Below, piece by piece: positions 5,728 through 8,299 of a stretch of 37,286 nucleotides of DNA; position 1 is the first letter of the stretch; every line of letters starts with the position of its first letter. A program made the position numbers and the translations under genes. A model generated the notes under the pieces. That model did no database searches and was not told where the DNA came from. It saw only the letters and a list, made by a program, of their open reading frames with translations. This DNA comes from Mariniphaga sp. Lineage in GTDB: Bacteria; Bacteroidota; Bacteroidia; Bacteroidales; Prolixibacteraceae. The DNA lies in assembly GCA_010906965.1 (NCBI GenBank), contig JAAFHB010000021.1, positions 1-37,286 of the forward strand, read 5' to 3'.

Positions 5728-7014
5728 TTATTGTCCTTTGTATGCGATCCGGTAAATGCGGCCATTCGCATCATCCGAAACAAACAGCGAACCGTCGGGT
5801 GCCTGCGCCAAACCACACGGACGGTGTTTTGCATCACCCGGATTCTTCACTTCACCAATCCCTGCAAAACCATTTGCAAAGATTTCCCAAGCTCCTGATG
5901 GAACACCACCTTTAAACGGAACAAATGCGACGTAATATCCCTCCTGTGGTAACGGAGTGCGGTTCCACGAACCATGAAACGCAATGAAACCGCCGTTTTT
6001 ATATTTCTCGGGGAACATACTTCCAGTGTAAAACAGCACATCATTCGGACCCATATGCGCAGGAAATGCTACGATTGGATTTTCTTCATTCGGTCTGCCC
6101 GCTTTTTTGCCATCACCACCATATTCAGGAGCAAGCACTTTCTTGTTTTGGATGGGATCGTAATAACTGTAAGGCCAGCCAAAATTCGAACCTTCGCTGA
6201 CAGATAAAAACTCTTCAGCCGGTAGTTGTGCATTTTGTTCGTTGGTATAAAGTTCTGGATAGAACTGACCAAGCTGATCCCTTCCATGCTGAAGAGCAAA
6301 CAACTTGTTTTCAGTACCATTCCATGTTATCGCGACTGCATTCCTGATTCCCGTTGCATACCGATAACCATCTTTGACCTGATCCTGGTTCAAAACATCT
6401 GCTTTAAATCGCCATATCCCGCCATGCTTTTCGAGTATCGGACAAGGATCCATCCCTGGCGAACCTTTCGTGCGGTCCTGAACCTGACAAGCATTCGATG
6501 GTGCTCCCACTGTGACATACATATTGCCCGCCTGATCGAATGTAAGCGGTTTGGTAGCGTGCTGGTTTTGAACATCAAACCCTTTGGCAATGACCTCAGG
6601 AGTAGCAGCCGGAACCAATTCGCCCGGTGTCAGTTTATAACGGACAACAATTGTATCTGCACCAAAATAAATAAACCCATTGTAAATTTTTAAGCCTGTT
6701 CCGTCATAAATACCATGGTATTTAATGATATCAGCCCTTCCATCCTTATTGTCATCGCGAAGACAAACGATACCGCCACCATTTTTCACATTACTGAGCG
6801 ACACATACACATCACCATTTGTATTAATCGCCATATGACGGGCATGACCGATATTATCGGCATACACAAGTGCAGAAAAACCGGCAGGAAGTTTCAGCCC
6901 GGCATTGTTCTTGTCGGATGCAATTGTACCGGATGGATCTGAAATCTTGTTTGGATTTGACTGGCAAGCTCCTATGAATGCCATTGTAATCATCAAAAAG
7001 ACGAATTTTTTCAT
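5728..7014 (-). CDS. PQQ-type glucose/sorbosone dehydrogenase lipoprotein
   Basis: This 428-aa protein carries a lipoprotein signal (IGAC, Cys17), so it is likely membrane-tethered in the periplasm or at the cell surface. The body has repeated beta-propeller blades: LPAGFSALVYADNIGHARHM, GDVYVSLSN, YRYATGIRNAVAITWN, SEGSNFGWPY and HRPCGLAQAPDGSLFVSDD. This pattern is typical of the GSDH/sorbosone dehydrogenase family that oxidises aldoses using pyrroloquinoline quinone. The exported cytochrome c directly downstream is a natural electron acceptor. PQQ biosynthesis genes are not in the window, so the cofactor would be scavenged or made elsewhere. A remarkable palindrome array lies 185 bp upstream of the start. 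Family confidence is high; the actual sugar is unknown. Confidence 0.8.
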   Translation of the reverse strand: MKKFVFLMITMAFIGACQSNPNKISDPSGTIASDKNNAGLKLPAGFSALVYADNIGHARHMAINTNGDVYVSLSNVKNGGGIVCLRDDNKDGRADIIKYHGIYDGTGLKIYNGFIYFGADTIVVRYKLTPGELVPAATPEVIAKGFDVQNQHATKPLTFDQAGNMYVTVGAPSNACQVQDRTKGSPGMDPCPILEKHGGIWRFKADVLNQDQVKDGYRYATGIRNAVAITWNGTENKLFALQHGRDQLGQFYPELYTNEQNAQLPAEEFLSVSEGSNFGWPYSYYDPIQNKKVLAPEYGGDGKKAGRPNEENPIVAFPAHMGPNDVLFYTGSMFPEKYKNGGFIAFHGSWNRTPLPQEGYYVAFVPFKGGVPSGAWEIFANGFAGIGEVKNPGDAKHRPCGLAQAPDGSLFVSDDANGRIYRIAYKGQ

Positions 7015-7198
7015 ATTAAATGGATTTAAAATTTCAATTCAATAGACTGAACGGTTGCCGGATAAATCAGTTCTGCCGTTGCCTTCTTTCAAGAAACAGG
7101 AATCAGCAGAAATTGTTTATAACGATTCTATTTAAGTGTATTTAAGGATGGACATTAAAGATTATACAAATTAAAACAGATCGCACTGTTGTTCCATT

Positions 7199-7492
7199 GT
7201 ATCACTTTTTAGCGCTTTAAGTCATGACTTGTCTATGAATAGTCATGACTTTTTAGACGTCAAGTCATTTTTTTGATTCAATAGTCATGACTTTTAGAAT
7301 ATCCAATCACTTTTTTGATTCAATAGTCATGACTAATCGTTAAAATAACCACCTAATAAGTTCATCAATGCGATCCAAATTCAATAAAGTCATGACTATT
7401 CGCGTATAAAGTCGCTTTGGTAATAGAAAAGTCATGACTTTTGATGTAATAGTCATGACTTTTAATTTTAGGAAGTCGTTTGTTTTCACATA
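7199..7492. repeat. 21-bp-phased array of AGTCATGACT palindromes
   Basis: Seven perfect copies of the 10-bp palindrome AGTCATGACT start at 7220, 7241, 7283, 7325, 7388, 7430 and 7451. The distances are 21, 42, 42, 63, 42 and 21, all exact multiples of 21. The gaps hold related units in the same register with half-sites such as AAGTCATTTT (7262), AATCACTTTT (7305) and AAGTCGCTTT (7409). Units 7262-7282 and 7304-7324 match at 18 of 21 positions, giving a local 42-bp higher-order repeat. Translation across the units gives SHDF on the + strand and KVMT on the - strand, but stop codons interrupt both, so the array is not coding now. It lies between the 3' end of the hypothetical gene at 7595 and the start of the sugar dehydrogenase gene at 7014. 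The rest of this 580-bp gap shows nothing I recognise. Confidence 0.9.
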
Positions 7493-7594: not shown

Positions 7595-8299
7595 TTACAA
7601 AATAAGCATTGTTTGCATACTGCTCCAGGGACCCGCAAGGGATGGATGTTTTACAAGGTACCAACGCAAATAGATGTAAAGGTATTTACCCGAACTGGCC
7701 GGACTTAGCGTTAAATGAATGGTAGCCTTCGTAGAAATTTCACGCTGCAGGCCATAGGCATCAGCCATGCCGGGTGGTGTATCGCCAACAAAGTATGAAT
7801 ATTGAACCGCGTCAGCGCCTGCAAATATGGATGCCCTCCCACCGCTGGAGCCATGGCATTTAATCGAAACAGTGCCACCACCAATGGGCTGAATGGAAGC
7901 AAACAAGGGTTCAGTGAGTGCTGCCTGAGGTCGCGTATGCGTGGTTTTAATCAGTATCCCCTTTTTGATGTTAAAAATTTCCATATCCGAAACCGTAACA
8001 ACAGGCGATGCCGCGATACGATCGAGTATATGATTTGTCTGATCAAATTGTACGCAACCGGCAACGATAGCATGCAACTGATCTGTTATTGCAGTGGTGC
8101 GGCTCCCTTTCCCATCGATATATTTGAGGTATAAAGGATTCCACTTGCCGACGAAAGCTGTCCAGCCCATAACTTCAGCCGGCAAAATCCCCAACCGGAT
8201 GGCATTGGCAGCGTTTTCCGCGACCAGGTAGGAATTCGTATTGGAAATGTAATTGTTGAACCGATCAATTGCTCGTGGAATTCTGGACCTATCGGGCAT
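7595..8299 (-). CDS. Hypothetical protein of a Bacteroidota-restricted type
   Basis: This 234-aa protein has no signal peptide or membrane segment. The N-terminal half (residues about 10-110) is helix-like, with RFNNYISNTNSYLVAENAAN and WTAFVGKWNPLYLKY. The C-terminal half looks like beta-sandwich, with VQYSYFVGDTPP and HLTLSPASSGKYLYIYLRWY. The layout resembles a group of uncharacterised Bacteroidota proteins of about 230 aa that I recall only as hypotheticals. No function is assigned. The start lies 18 bp after the serine hydrolase stop on the same strand, so the two are probably co-transcribed. The palindrome array begins about 100 bp beyond its stop. Confidence 0.6.
   Translation of the reverse strand: MPDRSRIPRAIDRFNNYISNTNSYLVAENAANAIRLGILPAEVMGWTAFVGKWNPLYLKYIDGKGSRTTAITDQLHAIVAGCVQFDQTNHILDRIAASPVVTVSDMEIFNIKKGILIKTTHTRPQAALTEPLFASIQPIGGGTVSIKCHGSSGGRASIFAGADAVQYSYFVGDTPPGMADAYGLQREISTKATIHLTLSPASSGKYLYIYLRWYLVKHPSLAGPWSSMQTMLIL

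Follow-up and report, generated by a model that had tools for sequence, protein, structure and literature searches.

Arrays of short palindromes in a 21-bp register recur in Bacteroidota, several of them beside genes of an unclassified family

The DNA analyzed here (the window, 37,286 nucleotides of a Mariniphaga sp. contig) carries an intergenic array of 21-bp units between two minus-strand genes (Table 1). The array lies 185 bp upstream of a gene with a GSDH domain and 103 bp downstream of a gene for a 234-aa protein. The first-pass annotation of this DNA named the former as neighbor and overlooked the latter, which is the linked partner of the array.

Table 1. Coordinates of the array, its perfect palindromes and the adjoining genes in the window
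Feature	Position	Strand	Remark
Whole 21-bp register array	7178..7492	.	15 units, seven with a perfect palindrome; from in-phase unit scores and the lag-21 region
AGTCATGACT copy 1	7220..7229	.	exact match
AGTCATGACT copy 2	7241..7250	.	exact match
AGTCATGACT copy 3	7283..7292	.	exact match
AGTCATGACT copy 4	7325..7334	.	exact match
AGTCATGACT copy 5	7388..7397	.	exact match
AGTCATGACT copy 6	7430..7439	.	exact match
AGTCATGACT copy 7	7451..7460	.	exact match
234-aa gene	7595..8299	-	unclassified family, members near 21-bp arrays elsewhere; array on its 3' side here
GSDH-domain gene	5728..7014	-	neighbor named by the first-pass annotation; probably not part of the module

The seven perfect copies of AGTCATGACT described in the annotation were recovered exactly as claimed, at steps of 21, 42, 42, 63, 42 and 21 bp between 7220 and 7460, and allowing one mismatch added no further copy in the window. 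None of 100 dinucleotide shuffles contained at least seven copies (mean 0.82, largest 4). The window holds 49 perfect 10-bp palindromes; the four commonest listed are AGTCATGACT, with its seven copies, and three that occur once. The degenerate units keep the same phase, as had also been proposed, with a mean pairwise identity of 0.408 in register versus 0.287 (sd 0.022) at random shifts; for the seven degenerate units, in-phase likeness had p ~1e-4 (20,000 draws of random relative shifts). Shift 0 scored best for every unit from 7178 to 7451 and the edge unit at 7472 preferred shift 2, using a scoring matrix built from units 7199-7472 themselves, with unit 7178 left out. The span originally given (7199-7492) is in register, but the register starts one unit earlier, at 7178. 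Within the window, 21-bp autocorrelation exceeded the threshold used only at 7169-7416. The host genome (G000, 5.87 Mb, 509 contigs) contains exactly seven copies of AGTCATGACT, all in this array, compared with five occurrences of the control, this 10-mer read backwards. Copies at random phase elsewhere in the genome, which the annotation had named as counting against an element, were not found in these 5.87 Mb.

The array is non-coding, as the annotation held, with stops in all six frames. Its alternative suggestion was a decayed coding repeat of seven residues (SHDF or KVMT); seven codons do span 21 bp, and mechanical open reading frames (ORFs) cover several homologous arrays. Repetition of any stop-free 21-bp unit leaves a frame open at no cost, and caution is warranted wherever ORFs are called on arrays of this type. 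Between two arrays of genome G104, substitutions counted by codon position number 37, 25 and 24 (one 311-bp block, ~104 sites each), a distribution with no significant bias and hence no sign of coding. Together with the six-frame stops in the window, this leaves the coding origin next to no chance. Transcription of the array into an RNA with a series of hairpins was also considered, as the array folds far better than its shuffles on both strands (z -7.7 and -6.5). These scores are uninformative because copies of one palindrome pair mutually by construction, and alike on both strands. On average the palindrome has symmetric arms, but matched versus shuffled arm pairing gave no significant covariation (p = 0.11 for G356 plus G436), and none of the seven arrays scanned (window, G104, G356 and G436) had an Rfam match at gathering score. 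We regard an RNA as improbable; symmetric arms without significant covariation lead us to take the dyads as duplex-DNA sites, which fit better than RNA hairpins.

The position upstream of the GSDH-domain gene would suit an operator array of sugar dehydrogenase genes, the tie drawn in the annotation. Dehydrogenase matches were obtained in 9 of 18 genomes of the same genus (host included), and two besides that of the host are orthologues (85% and 82% identity), both without an array upstream: AGTCATGACT is absent from the 1,790 and 4,549 bp of upstream DNA in G080 and G078, two incomplete genomes (84% and 68%). In G080, the upstream DNA resembles the window for 131 bp (88%) above the start codon, after which the likeness ends; in G078, BLAST above the start codon gave nothing beyond a 14-bp chance match. 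Where genes around other arrays were scanned, they included no dehydrogenase-type neighbor. The tie to the dehydrogenase is thus not supported, and a dehydrogenase operator is very improbable.

Recurrent non-coding arrays of variable length, which the annotation considered the mark of a real element, are present in other genomes. Across 20 AGTCATGACT arrays from 10 genomes (window included), successive spacings of the core GTCRYGAC were multiples of 21 bp in 102/106 cases (52 of 21, 39 of 42, 8 of 63 and one each of 84, 126 and 147 bp). These arrays were retrieved by motif, so their palindrome content is selected and their further spacings are unselected; G533 contributes two copies only. The off-register spacings were 41 (twice), 43 and 104 bp: three lie in G530 arrays (C8, C51 and C44), all without a perfect 10-mer, and the fourth is the 43-bp spacing in G528 C126. 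Weighted over genomes, the site consensus is AAnAGTCATGACTnTT. Pairs of AGTCATGACT at 21 to 51 bp occurred in 2 of 140 genomes of the host family, namely the host and Mangrovibacterium lignilyticum (G104, family Prolixibacteraceae). At the order level, 7/393 genomes held a pair of the core GTCATGAC, including the host (with both 21- and 42-bp steps), G356 and G436 (42 bp), and G159, G304 and G473 (single pairs at other spacings). In G413 (L140 C33 and L141 C46), GTCATGAC sits inside a different, 16-bp tandem repeat near contig ends. A scan of 84,980 species (one genome each, all spacings of 21-51 bp) yielded 41 stretches, 13 of them with a pair at 21 or 42 bp; spacing varied widely among the rest, with 30 bp next in frequency (5 stretches). 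Those 13 stretches come from eight genomes, seven titled Bacteroidota or its groups or genera and one titled Saccharibacteria (G532, 3.1 Mb), which we suspect to be misbinned.

Two species of one genus (G356 and G436) show how the arrays change. Their palindromes are kept and the units between them drift, tending to resemble another site of the AAGTACTT type. The register also extends past the palindromes. Of two orthologous array pairs, one is unchanged in span and the other differs by 105 bp (5 x 21). Among the flanks of 15 of the 20 arrays (700 bp on each side), similarity was limited to those of G104 and to the comparison of G356 with G436, apart from short G529 matches that lie in the family gene described below.

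The protein encoded on the far side of the window array was searched in the 140 genomes of the host family and matched in four; one match adjoins a second G104 array that had first been found by DNA alone, before the protein match. Homologues adjoining arrays were identified in G529 (52% identity to the window protein), G356 C3 (49%), G436 C68 (49%), G104 C9 (39%), G532 (31%) and, weakly, G528 C46 (23%, E 0.001). A profile search of the fetched loci placed a family member beside 7 of the 20 AGTCATGACT arrays and none beside the other 13 in the surrounding DNA examined, a count in which the G531 contig ends at its array and that side is without sequence. The profile behind this count included the G528 C46 and G786 proteins among its sequences. 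Independent support for the membership of G528 C46 comes from its matches to the G529 protein (E 1.8e-6) and the window protein (E 0.001), and for that of the G786 proteins from E-values of 1e-17, 3e-10 and 7e-10 (with a query that contained the G528 C46 row). The family is rare in the samples, with 4/140 genomes of the host family and 2/395 genomes of the phylum.

Searching by protein led to eight loci, two with known arrays (the window's own and G104 C9) and six new ones: G105, G104 C8, G103 and three in G786, a genome from another family of the same phylum. Mangrovibacterium lignilyticum (G104), an isolate, has two of these family genes near arrays. In 8/8 of these loci, 21 bp was the strongest local period (of 13-33), compared with 3/29 controls. 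The controls (39 loci listed, 10 dropped for holding at least two GTCATGAC copies, 29 used) were drawn from G104, G356, G436 and own-genus dehydrogenase homologues, with none from G786, G103 or G105, and one of the 29 (L037) is a 21-bp array itself. At a signal threshold of 0.42, 7/8 family loci pass, and L224 stands at 0.39. Periodicity scans of six 13-kb regions found one array each. None of the six new loci contains AGTCATGACT within the fetched DNA, yet all have period 21; the constant feature is therefore the 21-bp step near the gene, and the letters vary. Dyad symmetry exceeded that of shuffled columns in 2/3 G786 arrays, and no significant dyad was present in four of the six protein-found arrays (G104 C8, G103, G105 and the third of G786). 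It was significant in all six AGTCATGACT arrays tested, as expected given their discovery by motif. Palindromy is common but not universal among 21-bp arrays near family genes. In the G104 C9 array the alternate units lack the palindrome, and the units of G103 look like these, so that the two arrays may be related even though the palindrome is confined to one of them; the corresponding proteins are sisters in the tree.

The array lies 46-301 bp 5' of the gene in 9/13 linked cases. In G105, G104 C8 and G103 it is ~1.1-1.2 kb 5', with a gene carrying a GerE/LuxR-type domain in between (array starts at offsets 5254 in G105 and 5266 in G103 correspond to ~1.2 and 1.1 kb to the gene). The window is the sole case with the array on the 3' side, against 12/13 on the 5' side; 5' of the window gene, just 18 bp precede the next gene.

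Neither Pfam nor NCBIfam assigned the 234-aa product to a family. In a scan reaching E 10, five members of its family had no Pfam match above cut-off, and no NCBIfam model scored above its own. PADLOC returned nothing for the family and PHROGs only weak matches; at the search sensitivities applied, the family was also unmatched on plasmids (two members searched), on phages (one member) and on viral contigs. A structure model from five sequences (mean pLDDT 69.9, pTM 0.47) has its main helices in the part that ends at residue 108 and seven strands between 133 and 232; confidence is low for residues 114-140 and 149-162. Searching the PDB gave nothing at E <= 0.001; the best matches were mostly fibronectin-III (FN3) and related immunoglobulin-like domains (best E 4.4e-3, whole-query TM-score 0.23). 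The family proteins (~220-260 aa) are thus predicted to join a helical N-terminal part to an FN3-like C-terminal part. Residues 1-110 of the window protein carry no net charge. The idea that the palindrome is a mark of the linked protein is not supported: AGTCATGACT needs three changes on the tree of 13 proteins, and 62/500 label shuffles were as low. Palindrome type thus agreed with the protein tree no better than chance allows, and the linked protein may not be the reader of the palindrome.

We hypothesize that the array is a phased duplex-DNA docking array, that dimers read it from a single face of the helix, and that it is linked to this gene family; we give this tentative reading nearly even chances. 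The array would act in cis as a docking platform on duplex DNA, with dimeric DNA-binding proteins sitting on dyads exactly two helix turns apart; at that distance, bound dimers would be aligned along the same side of the DNA, each in contact with the next. Array and gene would together form a module, gene-less extra arrays would serve as additional docking sites or be copies that had spread, and the reader could be the linked protein or another host factor. This reading builds on what was observed: the sites keep register, the palindrome recurs, arrays and gene family are associated, the 21-bp step persists where the palindrome is missing, and orphan copies exist. From these we infer that the sites are bound by protein, that binding is cooperative, and that the array controls or serves the linked gene. 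Cooperative binding or a filament, as the annotation suggested, would be plausible. Against a module stand the 13 of 20 AGTCATGACT arrays with no family gene beside them in the DNA examined, the four of six protein-found arrays in which no dyad was significant, the palindrome type that fails to track the protein tree, the uncharged first 110 residues of the window protein, the occurrence of 21-bp arrays away from the family (L037, one of the 29 controls), the 3' array of the window, alone among 13 cases, and the gene that intervenes in G105, G104 C8 and G103.

Slippage offers a neutral account, in which a minisatellite yields 21-bp tandem repeats and the palindrome is whatever became amplified. 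Some 21-bp arrays are indeed near-perfect tandem repeats, and repeat number shifts by whole units. AGTACT triplets at 20-24 bp steps occur in 13/393 genomes of the order, several as plain tandem repeats, for which reason this count was not used as support for the module. Slippage is harder to reconcile with the same 10-mer in different genera and families, with palindromes that are kept while spacers diverge and a phase that survives in degenerate units, and with repeated association with one gene family. We consider a neutral minisatellite unlikely.

The main rival is dispersal as a REP- or MITE-like element, whose non-autonomous copies would spread via the linked gene or some transposase, with the register reflecting the copying of units and not regulation. 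Orphan arrays without a family gene occur in G104, G356, G436, G528 and G530. The orphan on G104 C13 is a 612-bp, 74% copy of the DNA 5' of the linked G104 C9 gene; the gene itself is absent, and the copy stops 22 bp before the C9 start codon. The restriction of AGTCATGACT pairs to two of the 140 genomes of the host family is also in keeping with dispersal, as are several G530 arrays at contig ends, a position typical of multi-copy repeats. Terminal inverted repeats of 9 bp, however, were not found at the ends of the G104 orphan, the five family members scanned have no Pfam family, and the protein was unmatched on mobile replicons and viral contigs as searched above. Similarity of flanks confined to G104 and G356/G436 (plus the gene-internal G529 matches) likewise speaks against it. 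Dispersal appears rather unlikely; it and the docking array are not mutually exclusive.

Among known systems, REP/BIME sequences with their REP-associated tyrosine transposases (RAYTs) are nearest in kind (PMC2817692). Like the arrays studied here, they consist of intergenic groups of short palindromes, some with a dedicated gene next to them, and have gene-less copies elsewhere. The gene of REP/RAYT systems encodes an IS200/IS605-like tyrosine transposase, whereas the protein linked here has no Pfam transposase match; that gene is flanked by two inverted repeats, whereas here the array is on the 5' side in 12/13 cases and the 3' side in 1/13. Few arrays were found per genome here and the 21-bp spacing is strict. 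Repeat and gene co-evolve in REP/RAYT; here, palindrome type needs three changes on a tree of 13 proteins only, with 62/500 shuffles as low. BrickBuilt, a minisatellite or MITE of Porphyromonas gingivalis, has a 23-nt period, the consensus AGAYCATARTATCCTCTCRTRTG, and leader and tail ends with terminal inverted repeats (PMC4596501). Like the arrays studied here, it is a dispersed intergenic tandem repeat of about two helix turns with variable repeat number in Bacteroidales. The arrays here differ from BrickBuilt in their 21-bp period, their letters and their associated gene family, and no 9-bp terminal inverted repeats were found at the G104 orphan ends, the one pair examined. By the features tested, we assign the module to neither system.

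Iterons and multi-copy operator arrays also present repeated protein sites in helical phase. The putative protein sites of our arrays share this phasing, but no replication initiator was seen among the neighbors scanned here, and the unit sequence differs between arrays of one gene family. The array and its gene family point to an undescribed gene-plus-DNA module; no description of such a module was found in the open-access literature searched. A bolder version, possible but doubtful, is a Bacteroidota module in which a small helical and FN3-like protein is paired with an intergenic array that conserves its geometry, the 21-bp step, across great evolutionary distances although the letters change; either this protein or one of its partners would polymerize on DNA at two-turn pitch and could itself drive the making of arrays. 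If the association holds in a larger survey, the result would be a DNA element defined by helical pitch and not by sequence, tied to a family with no Pfam or NCBIfam model above cut-off and no convincing PADLOC, PHROGs or PDB match. It would open to test how array geometry is inherited while letters turn over, and it would provide a handle on an unstudied gene family.

Several further repeats and array neighbors were recorded. Two palindromic repeats of the TAATACGTCAGGATT kind (L015, 8062-8092 and 8819-8849) flank the G104 orphan and are possibly REP-like. The L037 array (~2050-2380, near 1439000 of G104 C8) is an intergenic 21-bp array with other units; it adjoins a gene that is presumably formate-transporter-like, and the 14 kb fetched around it contained no significant family match. 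In G530, a nine-copy array (L139 7381-7559, C115) lies between tandem paralogous genes of the Pfam family Beta-lactamase2. In Paludibacter (G529, L147 6472-8254), the array is ~460 bp upstream of a small gene that is followed by a ParA-like AAA_31 gene. A partition system was considered and set aside, as the ParA-like gene was near the Paludibacter array only, among the neighbors scanned. No shared function by Pfam was seen among those array neighbors that were scanned, a subset of all. A scan of a viral collection returned 14 stretches. Viral contigs L177 (7217), L183 (13899), L187 (6159) and L185 (51) carry pairs of AGTTAGTCATGACTAACT-like sites at 42-44 bp, which we take to be probably phage operators. 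These make up four of the seven viral stretches inspected, among which a viral origin of the array found no support.

A second palindrome, CAGTACTG, recurs at 21 or 42 bp in G530 (L148-L153; contigs C49, C95, C107, C111, C121 and C92), a genome that holds AGTCATGAC arrays as well; several of the CAGTACTG arrays end their contigs. G225 C1 (L156-L175) offers an analogue of the layout, with dispersed intergenic arrays of a palindrome around CAGTACTG and differing spacers. This 2.2-Mb genome holds 137 CAGTACTG pairs, and 1/20 listed arrays lies between convergent genes (simple ORF caller). Five copies at 22, 23, 22 and 22 bp, or the mirror of this order, make up 14/20 arrays listed, and the rest miss at least one exact copy.
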